From the NCBI RefSeq assembly GCF_016863035.1, contig NZ_BOOC01000035.1, forward strand, positions 1 to 64,000: a stretch of DNA of 64,000 nt, written 5' to 3'. The notes under the pieces were generated by a model. That model did not search any database. It saw only the letters and a list, made by a program, of their open reading frames with translations, and was not told the origin of the DNA. This document shows, in pieces, positions 16,834 to 23,910 of this stretch. This stretch comes from Microbispora corallina (lineage in GTDB: Bacteria > Actinomycetota > Actinomycetes > Streptosporangiales > Streptosporangiaceae). Position numbers and translations under genes: made by a program. Each line of letters opens with the position of its first letter. Position 1 is the first letter of the stretch.

Positions 16834-18423
16834 TCACCCCGCGAGCAGCGGGAGCGGCGGGAAGGTGTGGTCCTGCCACAGCAGCCGCGAGGTCTCTTCG
16901 GGGTAGGCGGTGACCGTCGACGGCGTGTCGAAGAGCTGTGCGAGACGGTCGCCGGCGTCGTACGGCGGCCAGCCCGGGTCGCCGTGAGCGGCGAACGCCG
17001 TCCAGGCCCCGCGGATCCGCGCGGACAGCTCCTCCGCCGCCGGGGAGGGCGGGTCGCCGATCAGGACGGCGGGCTGTCCGCTGCTCAGGTTGCCGAAGAC
17101 GAGCGGCACGTCCAGGCCGTGGCAGGAGCCGAGAGCGCCGCCCAGTCCCGGGGCGGGCCAGGTCAGTTCGTAGAGGTGGGCCCGGCCGCCGCCGGCGATC
17201 TGCGCGCCGGCGAGGTGGAGACTCGGCATGCGGAACAGCCAGTCGGCGTTGACCAGCTCGTACAGCTCCTCGTCGGCCGCGGCCGGGAACGCCTCCCGGT
17301 ACCGGCGTGCGCCGTCCGGGCCAGGGGCGAGCATGTGCAGAGCGGTCTCGGTCTGCTCGTGCGTGACCTCGCCGAGCACGCCGTCGATCAGGCTGAACAG
17401 CCGGTGCTCGTCACGAGTGTGCCCGACGAGGAGCCCGACGTCCCGGGCCGCGCCGCCGGCCAGCGCCTGCCACGGGGTCACCGGCAGGACGTCACCGTCG
17501 ACGACCGGGGCGAACGGGATCGGCCGGTGTGCGATCCGCCCCCAGCGCTCCCGCCGCCGGACCGTCGTGGCGGCGATCGCGTCGCCCGCCGCGGGCAGCA
17601 GGGCCGGAGACACCGCCGACAGGCCTGACACCGTGGGCCGTACGCCCAGCTCGGCGGCGCAGGCGGCGGCGATGTCGGCGGCCAGCTCGGGAGAGAAGAA
17701 CGTCCCCGGCACGCTCTGCGCGACCGCCCTGCGGAACAGCCCGGCGGCGTGCGGCATGGCGAGCAGCGCGGCGACCGATCCGCCGCCCGCCGACTGACCG
17801 AAGATCGTGACCCGGCCGGGGTCGCCGCCGAACACCCGGACGTTGTCCCGCACCCACTGCAGGGCCGCGACCTGGTCGAGCAGGCCCCGGTTGGCCGGGG
17901 CTCCCTCGATCTGCGCGAAACCCTCGATCCCGAGACGGTAGTTGAGGGTCACGACCACGACTCCACCGCGGGCCAGATGCCCGGCGTCGTACTCCGGGAG
18001 GCTGGAGGTGCCCATGGCGTACCCGCCGCCGGGGATCCACACCATCACCGGGAGCCCCGCCTCGGGATCCGGCTCCGGCGTCCAGACGTTGAGCGTCAGC
18101 CAGTCGTCGCCGGCGGCGTCCTGGGACGCACCGAGCAGGCCGGACTGCGGGGGCGGCGGGCCGTACGCGACCGCCGGGCGGACACCGTCCCAGCCGCGCG
18201 CCGGCCGCGGCGCGGCGAACCGGAGGGCGCCGACCGGCGGCTCGGCGAACGGGATGCCGCGGAAGACCGCCAGGCCCGCCTCCCGGCCGCCGCGAAGGAC
18301 GCCGGCCGCCGTGCGGACCTCCGGATTGGACTCCGGCGGCTTGCGGGAAGGCGGCTCGCCAGATGACGGCTCGCGGGATGGCGGCTCGCTGGATGACGGC
18401 TTGCTGGATCCGGTGACGGCCAC
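16834..18423 (-). CDS. Type-B carboxylesterase
   Basis: About 529 residues, an alpha/beta-hydrolase of the carboxylesterase type-B family. The nucleophile Ser is in VTIFGQSAGGGSVAALL, the oxyanion region is VMVWIPGGGYAMG, and the acid and His lie in GHTRDEHRLFS and LGSCHGLDVPLVFG. The family start RTAAGVLRGGREAGLAVFRGIPFAEPP (key piece GIPFAEPPVG) is preceded by a 25-residue Ser/Pro/Glu linker encoded by 15-bp tandem repeats (about 18340-18410). GTG 18423 with GGAGAGGAAA upstream is the chosen start. It has no signal peptide and is divergent from the large secreted protein. Confidence 0.88.
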   Translation of the reverse strand: MAVTGSSKPSSSEPPSREPSSGEPPSRKPPESNPEVRTAAGVLRGGREAGLAVFRGIPFAEPPVGALRFAAPRPARGWDGVRPAVAYGPPPPQSGLLGASQDAAGDDWLTLNVWTPEPDPEAGLPVMVWIPGGGYAMGTSSLPEYDAGHLARGGVVVVTLNYRLGIEGFAQIEGAPANRGLLDQVAALQWVRDNVRVFGGDPGRVTIFGQSAGGGSVAALLAMPHAAGLFRRAVAQSVPGTFFSPELAADIAAACAAELGVRPTVSGLSAVSPALLPAAGDAIAATTVRRRERWGRIAHRPIPFAPVVDGDVLPVTPWQALAGGAARDVGLLVGHTRDEHRLFSLIDGVLGEVTHEQTETALHMLAPGPDGARRYREAFPAAADEELYELVNADWLFRMPSLHLAGAQIAGGGRAHLYELTWPAPGLGGALGSCHGLDVPLVFGNLSSGQPAVLIGDPPSPAAEELSARIRGAWTAFAAHGDPGWPPYDAGDRLAQLFDTPSTVTAYPEETSRLLWQDHTFPPLPLLAG

Positions 18424-18503
18424 GTCGCGGTTTCCTCTCCGTTCCTGCCCGGCCGAGCATCCCAGCGCACGCCGGCTGCGGGCAAACGGTTTAGCCTGCT
18501 GGT

Positions 18504-18521
18504 TGAGTACGCGGGTACTCA
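18504..18521. promoter_or_regulatory. Palindrome between divergent esterase and LGFP-protein genes
   Basis: TGAGTAC-GCGG-GTACTCA is a perfect 7-bp inverted repeat with a 4-nt spacer, 35 bp before the ATG of the large secreted protein and 80 bp from the esterase start. It is placed to act as a shared operator. No regulator gene lies next to it. Confidence 0.5.
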
Positions 18522-18556
18522 TGTGACCGCCGGGCGGGCCGGATGACACTGCCACC

Positions 18557-21500
18557 ATGGTCACTCGGCTTCTCGTCGTCCTGGCGTTGATCGCGTCCTC
18601 CCTGGGTCTGCCGCGGGCCACCGCCGCCTCGGCCGGCACGTGTGAGCTGCTCCCCGTGGGTCCCATCCACACGCGGTGGGTCCTGCTCGAGGGCAAGGAC
18701 GGGCCGCTGGGCTGCCCCACCGGCCCTGAGCAGGACGTGCCGGGGCACCGGGGCAAGCGCCAGACGTTCGAGGGCGGCGAGGTGGCCTGGTCGCCGGAGC
18801 AGGGCGAGGCCATGACGGTGGCCGCGTACCTGCTGGGCAAGTCGGCCGTCGTCGAGTTCGGGCCGACCGGCCCGTACCACTACGACAAGTTCCTGGTGCG
18901 CTGGGACCGCGACGGCCAGAACCTCGGCCAGGACAGCGCGAGGTTCAGCTGGTCCGACTCCGGGTCGCACGTGATCTACCCCGACAGGAACGGCACCTAC
19001 ACCTTCATCGTGGAGGGCTGCGACCAGGGCAGGTACGAGGGCTCGACCTGCCGGCAGGGCTGGACGATCCCGGTCAGCACCAGGCTCGACAGGGGCGGCG
19101 GCGGGTCCCAGGACGGAGTTCCTCCCGAGTGCCCGATACGGCCTCAGGGCGACATCGGCGCCAAGTGGTTCGACATGGGCTCGCGTTCCGGCCCGCTCGG
19201 GTGCGCCACCGGCCCGGAGGAGGACATCCCCGGACACCGGGGTAAGCGCCAGAACTTCGAACGAGGACAGATCGTCTGGTCGCCGGAGCAGGGCGAGCAC
19301 ATGGCGGTGGCGGCCTATCTCCTGGGCAACCGGGTCAGCGTGGACTGGGGGCCCTCGACCCCGTACACGTACGACTTCTGGCAGGTCCGCTGGGACAGGG
19401 ACGGCGTCAACCTGGGGCAGGACGAGCGGGACGCGAGGCGCATGTCGCCGGCGGACGGCGACCTCGGGCGGTGGACCGCGCGGTTGCAGGGGTTCGGCGA
19501 GTACGGCTTCACCGTCCAGGGCTGCGACAGGGGCGGCTTCCTCAGCGGAGCCACCTGCAGGCAGAAGTGGACCGTCCCGGTCCGGCTGCGTTTCCAGCCG
19601 GCGTCCGAGCCGCTCTGCGGAGAGCAGCCGGTCGGGCTGATCCGTGACAGGTGGCTGGAGCTACGCGGGCCCGCCGGGTTCCTCGGCTGCCCGACGGGCC
19701 CGGAGGAGGACGTGCCGGGCCGGCGCGGCAAGCGGCAGACGTTCCAGGGCGGGCAGATCGCCTGGTCGCCCGAACAGGGAGAGAGCATGGTCGTGGCCGC
19801 CTACCAGGAGGCCGACGGAGCCGTCGTCGAATGGGGGCCGACCCGGCCGCGGTTCGACTACGACCGCTTCCTGGTGCGCTGGGACGGCGACGGCACCGAC
19901 CCGCAGCAGCGGACGGTCACCGGATCCCGGGTGTCGGGCCGGCTGCGGGTGGGGCTGCTGCCCGAGTGGAAGCCGATCACCTTCATGGTGGAGGGCTGCG
20001 ACAAGGGCGGCCTCCTGTCCGGCTCGACCTGCCGGCAGAAATGGACGATCCCGGTGACCGTGCGGCCGAAGCCGTTCGACGGCGACGTCGACATCTCCGC
20101 GGCGTCCGCGGAGGACCCGGCGACGGCCATGGCGACCCAGAAGACGCGGACGGACGCGGCGGTCCGGTCGTACTCCTGCCTGAACGCGCTGGACCTGGAC
20201 GACCCGTCGCCGGGCGAGGGCGAGGCGGGGCGGCTCGTCGCCCGGCTGCAGCGGCTCAGGCTCGACGGCCCCGGATACGCGTGCGAAGGCGACCTGCCCA
20301 ACCGTCTCCTCGTCAACGAGTTCCTCCGGGACGTCCCCACCAAACCGGTGGGCACCGAGACCGACGACTGCCCGATCGAGGAGAAGACCGTCGGCGACTA
20401 CGACACGTTCCTCAAGGGGCTGATCTACATCGCGTACAAGCAGCGGGACCTGCTCGACTACGACGTGTGGTACCGCCTGCTGCACGAGCTGCTGACGATG
20501 AGCGGGCCGCACTCGGTGTCGGAGGAGGGCAAGTCCATTTGCCTGTTCGTGTCACCCGAGTCGGAGAACCACATCCTGCTGATCGAGACGGCCCGGTACC
20601 TGACCAACCAGCTGTTCTTCGACGCCACGCAGGACGCGGTCTGGGACAACCACGTCAACGGCATGGACGCCTATCTGCTGCGCTTCATGCACACGATCGC
20701 CCAGCACGACTTCCTGGAGTTCAACGCCCGGCCCTACCAGCGGTACTCGATCAACGGACTGCTCAACCTGTACGACTTCGCCCGGCAGAGGGCGGTGCGC
20801 ACCGGCGCGCAGATCGTCCTCGACTACACCACCACGAAGTTCGCCACGTCCAGCAACATGCTCAGGCGGAGCGGGCCCTTCCGGCGCCTGGCGGACCACA
20901 CCGACGCGGCGAACAAGAGCTACTACTCCGGCGACTCCGACCCGCAATCGGCCTTCTTCCTCGCCTACACCGGTCTGTCGGACTACACGGGAGGGAAGAT
21001 CCCGGCGCACTGGCGGCTGGAAGCGATGATCTCCGGGCTCTCGTCCTACCGGCCGCCGAGGGCCGCGTACGAACTGGCCATGAACAAGGGCACGCCGTAC
21101 CAGCAGACCTTCTTCCACGGAAACCGGCCGAAGATCCACCCCGACGCGGACGACGCCGATCCCGGCGTGGAGATCTACTCCAGCTCACCCTCCTTCATGA
21201 TCACAGCGGGCGGCGTCTTCCTCAACAGCGGCTACCGCTCCGACAGGATCAGGGGCTTCAAGGACCATGGCGTCGCCCAGCCGACCACGCTGATGCCGAC
21301 CGGGGCCGACGTGGAGGCGGCCGACCTGATCCGGTTCGAGGGGGCGCGGCGCGACGTCAGCAGCCCGCCGGACCGGGCCGTGGTCAACACCTGCGTCTCC
21401 GGCGGCTTCGCCTGCGGCGTCCAGGGCGTGGTCCCGCAGCGCTGGCTGCGCTGCGTCGGCCCCGAGTCGGACGGCCAGTGGCTCCTGCTGGACCTGGAAA

Positions 21501-21976
21501 GCTGCCAGGGGCTGGGCTTCTACGTCGCCATCCACATCGACCAGCCGAACGGCGTCCTGCCGCCGTACCAGAACGGCGGATTCTTCTACGCCGTGGAGCA
21601 CACGGCCATGCCGTTCAGCACCTTCGCCACGAAGACCAAGGAGCTCAACGCCGATCTCCCCCGATACCTGGACATCAGCACGCCGTACACCTTCCAGGCC
21701 CCCGACGGGCACACGTACCGCTTCCAGCTGCACAGGCCCGGCGGCAAGTACCTGTCCGACCTTCTGGAGATCGACGGCACGAAGCAGCCGGACGACCTGA
21801 CGTCCTTGCCTCTGGCCGACGGCCCCTTCCTCAGCTCAACCGGGCACGACGGGCTGATCAGGATCCGCCGCCCGGGCTGCGCCGGCCCGCTCAGCCTGGA
21901 CTTCCGCGACGCCCTGCAACCGGTCAGGACCGAGCCCCCGGCGCAGGACCCGAGCCCGATCTGCCCGCCCGTATAA
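18557..21976 (+). CDS. Large secreted protein: three LGFP-like Cys modules plus C-terminal domain
   Basis: An 1139-residue exported protein. A signal peptide (MVTRLLVVLALIASSLGLPR, cleavage near ATAASA) is followed by three tandem modules at about 27-176, 190-344 and 351-503. Each has an LGFP-like core (GPLGCPTGPEQDVPGHRGKR in module 1, WSPEQG next), a Y/D-rich strand with VRWDRDG, and a closing EGCD..TCRQKWTIPV. Each module has four cysteines in the same positions, probably two disulfides. LGFP repeats are known in actinobacterial wall-associated proteins. The rest (about 530-1139) is helix-rich and includes SENHILLIETARYLTNQLFF (helical), then a beta-rich part from about 860. This order resembles the (alpha/alpha) toroid plus beta-sandwich of polysaccharide lyases, but I cannot show a catalytic site. 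It stands alone. Confidence 0.85.
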   Translation: MVTRLLVVLALIASSLGLPRATAASAGTCELLPVGPIHTRWVLLEGKDGPLGCPTGPEQDVPGHRGKRQTFEGGEVAWSPEQGEAMTVAAYLLGKSAVVEFGPTGPYHYDKFLVRWDRDGQNLGQDSARFSWSDSGSHVIYPDRNGTYTFIVEGCDQGRYEGSTCRQGWTIPVSTRLDRGGGGSQDGVPPECPIRPQGDIGAKWFDMGSRSGPLGCATGPEEDIPGHRGKRQNFERGQIVWSPEQGEHMAVAAYLLGNRVSVDWGPSTPYTYDFWQVRWDRDGVNLGQDERDARRMSPADGDLGRWTARLQGFGEYGFTVQGCDRGGFLSGATCRQKWTVPVRLRFQPASEPLCGEQPVGLIRDRWLELRGPAGFLGCPTGPEEDVPGRRGKRQTFQGGQIAWSPEQGESMVVAAYQEADGAVVEWGPTRPRFDYDRFLVRWDGDGTDPQQRTVTGSRVSGRLRVGLLPEWKPITFMVEGCDKGGLLSGSTCRQKWTIPVTVRPKPFDGDVDISAASAEDPATAMATQKTRTDAAVRSYSCLNALDLDDPSPGEGEAGRLVARLQRLRLDGPGYACEGDLPNRLLVNEFLRDVPTKPVGTETDDCPIEEKTVGDYDTFLKGLIYIAYKQRDLLDYDVWYRLLHELLTMSGPHSVSEEGKSICLFVSPESENHILLIETARYLTNQLFFDATQDAVWDNHVNGMDAYLLRFMHTIAQHDFLEFNARPYQRYSINGLLNLYDFARQRAVRTGAQIVLDYTTTKFATSSNMLRRSGPFRRLADHTDAANKSYYSGDSDPQSAFFLAYTGLSDYTGGKIPAHWRLEAMISGLSSYRPPRAAYELAMNKGTPYQQTFFHGNRPKIHPDADDADPGVEIYSSSPSFMITAGGVFLNSGYRSDRIRGFKDHGVAQPTTLMPTGADVEAADLIRFEGARRDVSSPPDRAVVNTCVSGGFACGVQGVVPQRWLRCVGPESDGQWLLLDLESCQGLGFYVAIHIDQPNGVLPPYQNGGFFYAVEHTAMPFSTFATKTKELNADLPRYLDISTPYTFQAPDGHTYRFQLHRPGGKYLSDLLEIDGTKQPDDLTSLPLADGPFLSSTGHDGLIRIRRPGCAGPLSLDFRDALQPVRTEPPAQDPSPICPPV

Positions 21977-22006
21977 GGGACGTGACCGGCCGCCGGGCCC
22001 CGGGCG

Positions 22007-22042
22007 GGTCCGGCGGACGGACGCGGTCCGGCGGACGGACGC
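22007..22042. repeat. Two exact 18-bp tandem copies
   Basis: GGTCCGGCGGACGGACGC occurs twice head to tail between two convergent genes. Each copy contains a small GTCCG/CGGAC inversion. Replication slippage is the simplest origin. Confidence 0.8.
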
Positions 22043-22057
22043 GAGGAGTGCGGCGCT

Positions 22058-22113
22058 CGACGGGCGCGCTCGGCGGGCGGCACCGGCGGCGCGGGAGCCC
22101 TCGGCGCCCGTCG
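22058..22113. terminator. Inverted repeat between convergent genes
   Basis: CGACGGGCGC at 22058-22067 pairs exactly with GCGCCCGTCG at 22104-22113 around a 36-nt GC-rich loop. The left arm is in the gap between the secreted protein and the TPR-like gene, close to the stops of both. A bidirectional terminator is likely, though the loop is long and there is no T-run. The last codons of the TPR-like gene begin at 22116. Confidence 0.4.
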
Positions 22114-22115
22114 CG

Positions 22116-22844
22116 TCAGCGTCGCTCGTCGCCGAAGGCCTCACGCGGCTGGAGGAGCCGTCCTCGCGCGTACTCCTCATCGAAGGCGGACGGGCCGAGC
22201 GAGCCGAGCGCGGCGGCGCGCATCTTGGCGAGGTCGGCCGCGTCGTCGGGGTCGGGCACCTGGCCGATCGCCGCGAACGCGGCATCCGTGACACCGATCA
22301 TCCGCGCCGCGCGGGCGTGGTCGCCCTCGGCCGAGGCGAGTGCGGCGCCCGCCACGCAGACGTACGGCACGAAATCCGCCCAGCCGTTGCCGAACACCCG
22401 CTCGCGGTTCTCGGCGAACAGCTCCCTCGCCACGTCGAGGTTGCCCAGGCCCAGCTCGCAGAACGCGAGGTTGTGGTATTCGGAGTTGACCATCTCGGGC
22501 CGGCCGAGCTCCTCGTTGAGGGCGATGCTCTCCCGGTACAGATCCCGGGCGCGGAGCAGGTCACCCGACATGCGGGCCACGCCGGCCAGCACGTGGCGAG
22601 GCCGTTCCTCGAGGCCGCGGTCGCCGGAGCGCAGCGCGACCTCGAGAGCCTCCAGGGCCCGGGCCTGTCCGCCCCGCAGGTCACCGCCGCGGATGGCGAC
22701 CCGGGCCAGGCTGTACCTGGCCTCCACCTCCCCCGCCAGGTCGCCGGCGGCCTGGGCCCGCTCGATCTCGGCCTCGCTCATCCGCACCACGGCGTCGGTC
22801 TCACCGCGCCGGAACGCCGAGCGCACGCGCTCACTGAAGCTCAT
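22116..22844 (-). CDS. TPR-like helical repeat protein
   Basis: A 242-residue all-helical protein with tetratricopeptide-like spacing: AGDLAGEVEARYSLARVAIR, SGDRGLEERPRHVLAGVAR, MSGDLLRARDLYRESIAL and GLGNLDVARELFAENRER. It resembles the repeat regions of large actinobacterial LuxR/AfsR-type regulators but has no DNA-binding or ATPase domain, so it is either a free-standing TPR protein or an ancient fragment. The ribosome site AAAGGCGACC precedes ATG 22844. It is 57 bp downstream of the acetyltransferase gene on the same strand. Confidence 0.75.
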   Translation of the reverse strand: MSFSERVRSAFRRGETDAVVRMSEAEIERAQAAGDLAGEVEARYSLARVAIRGGDLRGGQARALEALEVALRSGDRGLEERPRHVLAGVARMSGDLLRARDLYRESIALNEELGRPEMVNSEYHNLAFCELGLGNLDVARELFAENRERVFGNGWADFVPYVCVAGAALASAEGDHARAARMIGVTDAAFAAIGQVPDPDDAADLAKMRAAALGSLGPSAFDEEYARGRLLQPREAFGDERR

Positions 22845-22901
22845 GGTCGCCTTTCATCGTCGAGGTGTCCCGTCCCGTGGTCGACCCGGAGGTCTCGTCC
22901 G

Positions 22902-23654
22902 TCACGCGAACACGGTCCAGTTCTCCACGAGACGGAAGCCCATCGACTCGTAGAGCGATCGGCCTATCGCGCTGGAGTGCAGGTAGGCCGCGTCCGCGCC
23001 CGCCGCGACGCCGTCCAGCACCACGGTCTCGGTGATCGCCCGGCCAAGGCCACGGCCCCGCGCGGACGGGACGACGGCGATGTTGAACACTCCCACCACG
23101 CCGGACGTCCGCACACCGAGCCCGGTCCCGGCGGGCCGTCCGGACTCCTCGGCCAGATAGCCCGTGATGCCGTCGGCGTCGAGCACGCCGCCGCCCATGA
23201 GCGAGCCGAAGGCGCCCTCGGGAGCCTCAAAGGCCCGGGTGAGCGTGTCGGTGTAGAGGTCGTTCTCGGCGGCGCCGATCCGGCGCACCAGCTGCCGCTG
23301 TGCCGCGCCGGCCCGGAACGCGATGTCCGCGGAGCAGGCCAGCAACGGCAGATCCGAGCGGCCGGCCAGTCCGTGCCGGGCCGCGAGGTCGGCGACCTCG
23401 TCGCCCGCCTCGCCACGAACCATGATCGACCAGGGCACGGCCTGCCTGCCGACCTCGGTCGCCATCGCGTCGAGCGCCCCGAGGTCCGGTTCGCGCGTCG
23501 TGTCGTAGGCCACGTTCAGCGTCGCGACGCCGGCGTGGGTCACCGCCGCGCGGGCGCTGCCCCGCTCGGCGTACCAGCCCTTCGGTGTCACCCCGCAGAG
23601 GAGCTCGATGGCGTCGAAGTACGCCGCCGCCATCCGATCAGCGGTTGTGTTCAT
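22902..23654 (-). CDS. GNAT-family N-acetyltransferase
   Basis: A 250-residue protein with a C-terminal GNAT fold: beta-4 GVVGVFNIAVVPSARGRGLG includes the acetyl-CoA pyrophosphate loop (R-G-R-G-L-G), then AYLHSSAIGRSLYESMGFRLVE is the typical end. The N-terminal half is a second, degenerate GNAT-like region, as in many two-domain members. The acceptor substrate is unknown. Confidence 0.85.
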   Translation of the reverse strand: MNTTADRMAAAYFDAIELLCGVTPKGWYAERGSARAAVTHAGVATLNVAYDTTREPDLGALDAMATEVGRQAVPWSIMVRGEAGDEVADLAARHGLAGRSDLPLLACSADIAFRAGAAQRQLVRRIGAAENDLYTDTLTRAFEAPEGAFGSLMGGGVLDADGITGYLAEESGRPAGTGLGVRTSGVVGVFNIAVVPSARGRGLGRAITETVVLDGVAAGADAAYLHSSAIGRSLYESMGFRLVENWTVFA

Positions 23655-23706
23655 GGCCGTCCCCCATCACATCTTCCGTGCCCCGGGGAGAGTACCGGCA
23701 GTCGCA

Positions 23707-23910
23707 CGCACCGATGACACCGGCGCCCGACTGAAGCCGGTCCTGACCAGCCGCACCGAGGGCGGCACCACCACGAGCTATGAACACGCCGGCACCAGTA
23801 ACGATGTGGTCGCCGTCACCGATGCCGCAGGCGTGAAGCAGGAGACCTACAGCCGGGGCGCGTTCGGCGGCGTCGTGTCCGCAAAGACCCTGGCGGACAC
23901 CAGCAGGTGA
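23707..23910 (+). pseudogene. RHS/YD-repeat protein fragment
   Basis: A 67-codon stretch reading RTDDTGARLKPVLTSRTEGG, then EHAGTSNDVVAVTDAAG and SRGAFGGVVSAKTLADTSR. The pattern Y/H-x-G-x-x-N-D-x-x-A-V-T-D-x-x-G is that of RHS/YD repeats from large secreted polymorphic-toxin proteins. There is no start or signal sequence of its own; the open frame upstream runs into the antisense of the acetyltransferase. It appears to be a displaced remnant at the left edge of an AT-richer island. Confidence 0.6.

Follow-up and report, generated by a model that had tools for sequence, protein, structure and literature searches.

What might a protein do that joins three cysteine-rich modules to a large domain without a match in Pfam? 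The question is raised by a gene of Microbispora corallina encoding 1139 residues, which lies in a stretch of 64,000 nucleotides (contig NZ_BOOC01000035.1, positions 1 to 64,000) analysed here and called the window. From the letters of the sequence, an initial annotation had described three LGFP-like modules followed by a toroid-like domain, and had proposed either a wall- or polysaccharide-anchored lyase or a binding protein. On balance we consider it probable that the protein is an exported enzyme active on carbohydrates, of the toroid-plus-beta-sandwich polysaccharide-lyase kind, with its own sequence family and anchored by modules that combine an LGFP repeat with a fibronectin type III (FN3)-like domain. 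The fold and the conserved site come from computation, and from them we infer a possible lyase activity, its likely substrate and probable binding to the wall.

The closest relative, found in Nonomuraea sediminis (L008), has an identity of 68% across 1135 codons, rising to 70% within the C-terminal domain (CTD). It keeps the three modules, the CTD and, as judged by eye, a signal-peptide-like start. The two genes differ at 409 third codon positions versus 264 and 205 at the other two positions. Since the layout is kept in L008 and the changes concentrate at third codon positions, the gene is a real coding frame and no accident. The architecture is real, unusual and well conserved. An open reading frame (ORF) of 1100 residues at 19651-22953 and the minus-strand ORFs overlapping the gene were taken as frame shadows caused by high GC content. 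The N-terminus looks by eye to be of Sec type, which suggests that the protein is secreted.

Fold, family and conserved site of the C-terminal domain

The CTD (residues ~510-1139, about 600 residues) was modelled confidently by AlphaFold2 (pLDDT 85.5, pTM 0.90) as an alpha/alpha toroid with a beta-sandwich. Model residues 21-342 are helical and residues 348-625 are beta, the helical-then-beta succession that had been read from the sequence. The best structural matches are glycosaminoglycan lyases, alginate lyases and human dermatan sulfate epimerase (DS-epi1). Together with the predicted model, they assign the fold to the toroid polysaccharide-lyase superfamily (PL8/12/15/17/21/33/35/39 type), the listed lyases aligning over 388-457 CTD residues and reaching the beta domain. 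Sequence identity to the CTD is 6-10% for the PL35 glycosaminoglycan lyases GAGase VII (8khw), GAGase II (8khv) and chondroitinase 9o3q, and 9-11% for DS-epi1 (6hzn), an animal Golgi enzyme and the only Foldseek match with E < 0.001. No sequence relation to the CTD was detectable for the alginate lyases PL17 Alg17c, PL39 Dp0100 and PL15 Atu3025.

The window CTD matches no Pfam family, NCBIfam gives none for the window protein, and across 18 members of the CTD family the sole Pfam match is GH43, in one member. A profile of the 18 CTDs compared by hmmsearch with all PDB sequences gave 0 matches at E <= 10. None of the 18 members matches the Heparinase II/III-like family PF07940 at E <= 0.1, and hhalign of the CTD with PF07940 ORFs from 30 loci, taken as one group of 11 and one of 9 sequences, yielded probabilities of 0.2-0.3%. 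Homology to Hepar_II_III proteins was rejected on this negative profile comparison; the host genome encodes one PF07940 protein elsewhere (L090), as do 36 of 60 relatives. Judging from model and alignment, we interpret the CTD most readily as a new family at the sequence level, whose members would be toroid lyase-like enzymes, without a match in Pfam, NCBIfam or the PDB sequences. Neither finding that would have refuted the initial annotation was obtained: no Pfam or NCBIfam family covers the CTD, and the protein carries LGFP repeats and a predicted toroid.

The 18 CTDs (alignment A3) are that of the window, those of all 16 loci found in a search of 84,980 species, and L004. Renewed encounters of the window (L001, L006, L026), apparent duplicates (L002, L003, L024, L025, L027-L030), fragments (L005, L036, L037) and distant or chance matches (L031-L035, L038, L039) were left out. 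There are 42 invariant columns, 24 of them within residues 668-777. As rows L021 and L023 lack the first ~150 alignment positions, no column of that part could count as invariant. The core consensus of the family is E-x-E-N-H...D-F-x-E-[FY]-N-[AS]-[RH]-x-Y-x-R with an Arg-rich stretch after it (motifs in Table 1), and K761, R770, R771, P774, R776 and R777 are further invariant residues. In the toroid, where the initial annotation had suggested looking for lyase-type catalytic His, Tyr and Arg, a catalytic-like Asn/His...Tyr set is therefore invariant in 18/18 CTDs. By comparison of sequences, N671 is the putative carboxylate neutraliser, H672 the putative base or acid and Y727 the putative catalytic Tyr, the RRSGPFRR cluster being a putative anion-binding site.

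N671 and Y727 are 56 residues apart, and across the 18 CTDs the spacing is 56 (n=15), 57 (n=2) or 61 (n=1). In the available excerpt of PMC12088678 (Table 4), the spacing from neutraliser to Tyr is 54 for PL35 (Asn), PL12 (Asn) and PL15 Atu3025 (His), 57 for PL17 (Asn), 55 for PL21 (His) and 53 for PL39 (Asn). The excerpt of PMC11848413 numbers the PL39 Tyr differently, as Y259, and gives N238 and Y291 for PL33, a spacing of 53. The His205-Tyr261 spacing of DS-epi1 is 56 in the excerpted text of PMC8006597, a fit with the 55 from H672 to Y727 in the CTD. In sequence and spacing (56-61 in 18/18 CTDs), the family thus carries the Asn/His plus Tyr arrangement of several toroid lyase families, where the spacing is 53-57. 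Compared by the ends of the aligned ranges, the offset between model and template at the alignment start agrees with the offsets at the site residues: 35, 33 and 34 for DS-epi1, 24, 30 and 31 for Alg17c, and 133, 139 and 138 for PL15; the agreement is less good for GAGase VII (26, 16, 14) and GAGase II (31, 21, 19).

In the beta domain, the AGG strand is followed by a stretch, typically AQxTTL with both Thr invariant, that leads to the next strand. H854, placed after the first beta strand, is found in 17/18 CTDs (G in the split copy L021); its role as a beta-domain catalytic His is doubtful, since the distant relative L031 does not have it. Two invariant tyrosines, Y874 and Y893, are possible candidates for the second Tyr of a DS-epi1-type triad.

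More distant proteins share part of the site. By profile alignment with the CTD, L031/L032 reach a probability of 99.9% over 358 columns (E 4.9e-36), and for L033/L034/L038/L039 the match is weaker, at 96.9% over 147 columns (E 1.3e-10). All six are large proteins which keep ENH and F-x-E-[WFY]-[NHD]-[SA]-x-x-Y, including the E and Y of the DFLEFNARPYQR motif (6/6), with an N-to-Y spacing of 59-83. Only this ENH...ExxxxxY core is common to them and the CTD. None of the five tested (L031-L034, L038) gave a Pfam or NCBIfam match above the curated cut-off, and for L031 and L038 the PDB sequences gave no match either.

The LGFP-FN3 modules

The pairwise identities of the three modules, of about 150 residues each, are 54%, 56% and 52%. 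Their alignment scores range from 378 to 423, against maxima of 9-35.5 for shuffled sequences (200 shuffles per pair), and the four cysteines align across all three modules, which fully supports the repeat that the initial annotation had recognised. Pfam LGFP (PF08310) was detected in three stretches with 104.8 bits (cut-off 22, E 2.9e-30). The modules, first described as LGFP-like, do contain true LGFP repeats but are not a single LGFP-type fold: each is an LGFP repeat (~55 residues) followed by an FN3-like domain (~95 residues), the second half of every module having the beta-sandwich of the fibronectin type III fold. Searched with the whole protein, PHROGs returned one match, to an endolysin family (E 8e-22), in three stretches, the best being residues 197-246 of module 2.

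The module profile also finds the LGFP repeats of the Corynebacterium MytA/PS1 stalk (6sx4, 6swz) with an E-value of 5.1e-26. In MytA, five LGFP repeats are joined to a mycoloyltransferase, whereas in the window protein LGFP alternates with FN3-like domains; the window modules carry cysteines that the MytA repeats lack. Another LGFP protein is the GH70 enzyme GtfD of Propionibacteriaceae, in which five LGFP repeats with a predicted disulfide are likewise joined to a carbohydrate-enzyme domain (PMC11299179, excerpt). Its catalytic domain is different, and the excerpt does not describe alternation with FN3 (PMC11299179). Excerpts on the PL35 GAGases and chondroitinase 9o3q do not mention LGFP-FN3 modules. 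Among the papers listed for LGFP in the open-licence PubMed Central literature, no title or abstract opening described LGFP joined to a toroid lyase, which is no proof of absence.

Small, secreted-looking proteins with one LGFP-FN3 module were observed in the same genome (L007, G000:C1:162651-163175) and in relatives (L044, L045, L046, L048). It is possible that they are stand-alone wall-binding proteins.

Table 1. Parts of the protein and conserved motifs, with positions in the window
Feature	Position	Strand	Basis
Whole gene, 1139 residues	18557..21976	+	ORF call; same order of parts in homologue L008
Signal peptide, residues ~1-26	18557..18634	+	Arg, long hydrophobic run, ATAASA; by eye
Module 1, LGFP repeat + FN3-like, Cys 29/53/155/165, residues ~27-177	18635..19087	+	
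Module 2, LGFP + FN3-like, Cys 192/216/323/334, residues 190-346	19124..19594	+	
Module 3, LGFP ~352-406 + FN3-like ~407-504, Cys 354/378/481/492, residues 352-504	19610..20068	+	
CTD, predicted alpha/alpha toroid part, residues ~520-845	20114..21091	+	AlphaFold2 model, structural matches
CTD, predicted antiparallel beta part, residues ~846-1130	21092..21946	+	AlphaFold2 model
ExENH motif, E668-H672	20558..20572	+	E668, E670, N671, H672 invariant 18/18; ENH in 6/6 distant relatives
DFLEFNARPYQR motif, D718-R729	20708..20743	+	D718, F719, E721, N723, Y727, R729 invariant 18/18
RRSGPFRR basic cluster, R770-R777	20864..20887	+	four Arg and Pro invariant 18/18

Proposed function and alternatives

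In a lyase of this kind, the LGFP-FN3 tandem would keep the enzyme attached to a polymer of the wall or matrix, and pairs of cysteines would stabilise the modules outside the cell. The Arg cluster would bind an acidic, uronate-bearing chain in the cleft between the toroid and the beta domain, and N671/H672 would neutralise the carboxylate. Y727, together with H672, could then shuttle the C5 proton and protonate the leaving oxygen, resulting in beta-elimination. The substrate would be an anionic polysaccharide, most simply a uronate polymer associated with the wall or matrix.

Several observations weigh against this proposal. The Foldseek TM-scores are low and the hyaluronate-lyase rows are redundant. 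The Asn-Tyr spacing has exceptions among toroid lyases themselves, since in the excerpt of PMC12088678 PL8 chondroitin AC lyase (59), PL23 (63) and chondroitin ABC lyase II fall outside the 53-57 range. The HxHxD motif of the beta domain, which in the GAGases is His401/His403/Asp405, occurs in 0/18 CTDs. In PL35 the base and the metal ligands belong to this motif, while the residues listed for PL8 chondroitin AC lyase lie in the toroid (PMC12088678, excerpt). With HxHxD missing, the putative catalytic side chains of the CTD would all be in the toroid, as in that PL8 enzyme. The anchored lyase of the initial annotation is therefore partly supported: it is favoured by the predicted toroid-lyase fold, the lyase and epimerase matches and the LGFP repeats, and disfavoured by the loss of this motif from all 18 CTDs.

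That same loss would suit a protein without catalysis, serving in binding or adhesion, whose toroid just holds a glycan, the other half of the initial proposal, as would the fusion of the CTD to binding-type modules and the variety of its partner domains. We nevertheless regard it as rather unlikely, as relatives from three phyla strictly retain polar residues of catalytic type (E, N, H, D, Y, R, K), seemingly beyond structural need. The invariant carboxylates E668, E670, D718 and E721 could instead, without Tyr or His, serve a glycoside hydrolase or phosphorylase built on an alpha/alpha toroid. This seems unlikely to us: the three glycoside hydrolase matches cover only 228-262 toroid residues, far from the extent reached by the lyases, and the combination of invariant Asn, His, Tyr and Arg residues is closer to that of lyases. 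The match with human DS-epi1 raises the case of a C5-epimerase that would act on a uronate polymer and leave the chain uncut. It is improbable in view of the VIA ranking, in which two lyases stand above DS-epi1 (11.1 vs 8.9), and of the Mn ligands and second Tyr (Tyr473) of DS-epi1, for which no CTD equivalents were identified; moreover, a wall-anchored bacterial epimerase would need a polymer made by its host, and the genes around it showed no locus for one. Finally, action on a phosphate- or sulfate-bearing wall polymer of teichoic acid type, with the Arg cluster receiving phosphate, would suit the invariant RRxxPFRR (four Arg and Pro, 18/18) and the wall location suggested by the modules, but is very improbable, as the close structural matches act on uronates and among toroid enzymes none is known to us to cleave teichoic acid with such a residue set.

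Distribution, genomic context and significance

The CTD is rare. Relatives were detected in 4 of 149 close genomes, with no match in the 14 other genomes of the genus, in 12 of 345 genomes of the order (7 over essentially the whole domain, 5 partial or distant) and in 3 of 396 genomes across the phylum (the other two distant), each count including the host itself. One of these five, G002 (E 9.7e-4), is probably due to chance. In the 84,980-species collection, relatives occur at 16 loci; G065:C41/L016 and G076:C33/L022 are apparently the same contigs met twice. The CTD is also found in Bacillota and Pseudomonadota, with other partner domains.

A tree of the 18 rows was built with IQ-TREE and rooted on L023. 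Eight rows (L013, L016, L022, L017, L015, L018, L019, L020) form a clade with support 99/100 in which Actinomycetota, Bacillota and Pseudomonadota are mixed, suggesting transfer between phyla. Nine other rows, of the window's kind, are all actinomycete but not one clade, and L004 branches deeper. Six of these nine (window, L008, L009, L011, L012, L014) show a signal peptide by eye, the protein start being missing or unclear in the remaining three. Cysteines 541, 576, 662, 946, 953, 966 and 983 (window numbering) are kept in 8 or 9 of the nine rows; in the eight-row clade the same columns hold no Cys except 953 (6/8) and 662 (1/8), while Cys 1108 is present in both sets (6/9 and 7/8). L013, L016/L024, L017 and L022/L025, where no signal peptide was seen by eye, have 2-3 Cys in the first LGFP module and none in the second. 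L014 is an exception, with a signal-like start and modules of only 2 and 3 Cys, and in L019 a Tat-like leader was recognised by eye. Overall, the distribution of cysteines fits disulfides in an exported protein.

Within the eight-row clade, a region of beta-propeller-like repeats, recognised by eye, is inserted in the CTD beta domain at L018:953-3760, L019:9941-12865 and L020:9977-12883 (hosts Planococcus, Haematobacter and an uncultured actinomycete), and in L015 propeller-like repeats precede the CTD. Several members extend beyond the CTD into helical TPR-like repeats, the Pfam TPR matches of L017 being below the cut-off. Elsewhere, a Fodinicola copy (L021:9365-11850) is split over two frames by a frameshift or sequencing error. 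In L005 (G065:C69), what follows the LGFP modules matches only the final part of the CTD (query 543-608), possibly a decayed second copy.

The genes around that of the window encode DXS, DUF6884, luciferase-like monooxygenase, carboxylesterase, TPR and GNAT proteins. The flanks of eight relatives share only the CTD gene with the window (blastn), and among 10 nearby ORFs in seven relatives none is clearly of a uronate pathway by Pfam; L009 has a neighbour of dihydroxy-acid/6-phosphogluconate dehydratase type, other neighbours being a helicase, hydrolases, a regulator and similar. An operon or system was rejected for want of a conserved gene neighbourhood. A phage origin was also rejected: none of 61 pattern matches in viral contigs was confirmed as a relative, phage records held no relative, and the best BFVD fold match had an E-value of 0.16. 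A match at 37.6%, covering 65% of the query, came from one record of a Streptomyces plasmid. The flanking carboxylesterase (window 16834-18840, minus strand) has orthologues at 88-90% in 4 of the 14 other genomes of the genus. Their surroundings (16-20 kb stretches, blastn) have nothing else in common with the window, and no empty site was demonstrable. The TPR gene on the other flank finds only weak matches in the genus (26-43%). A short ORF at window 23608-23910 (plus strand) resembles by eye an Rhs/YD-repeat fragment. Elsewhere in the host genome, one GH88-type gene gives a general hint of unsaturated-uronate processing, though the family is also present in 3 of 14 control genomes, and one match to PF07221 (N-acetylglucosamine-epimerase type) is uninformative.

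Toroid enzymes that cut at uronates serve in the breakdown of glycosaminoglycans, alginate and the matrices of biofilms, and newly described sequence families have yielded new specificities. More boldly, and only tentatively, the CTD may found a new CAZy-type PL family without the beta-domain metal/His site and with all its chemistry in the toroid, inside an uncatalogued 'ENH...ExxxxxY' toroid superfamily (L031-L034, L038, L039), the LGFP-FN3 tandem being a new glycan-binding unit for an actinomycete wall or biofilm polymer. A CTD family missed by Pfam and NCBIfam, present in three phyla and carried on probable wall-binding modules, makes acidic polymers from the wall or matrix of soil actinomycetes a candidate class of substrate. 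The family is also a natural test of whether such a toroid lyase works without the His/metal site of the beta domain.

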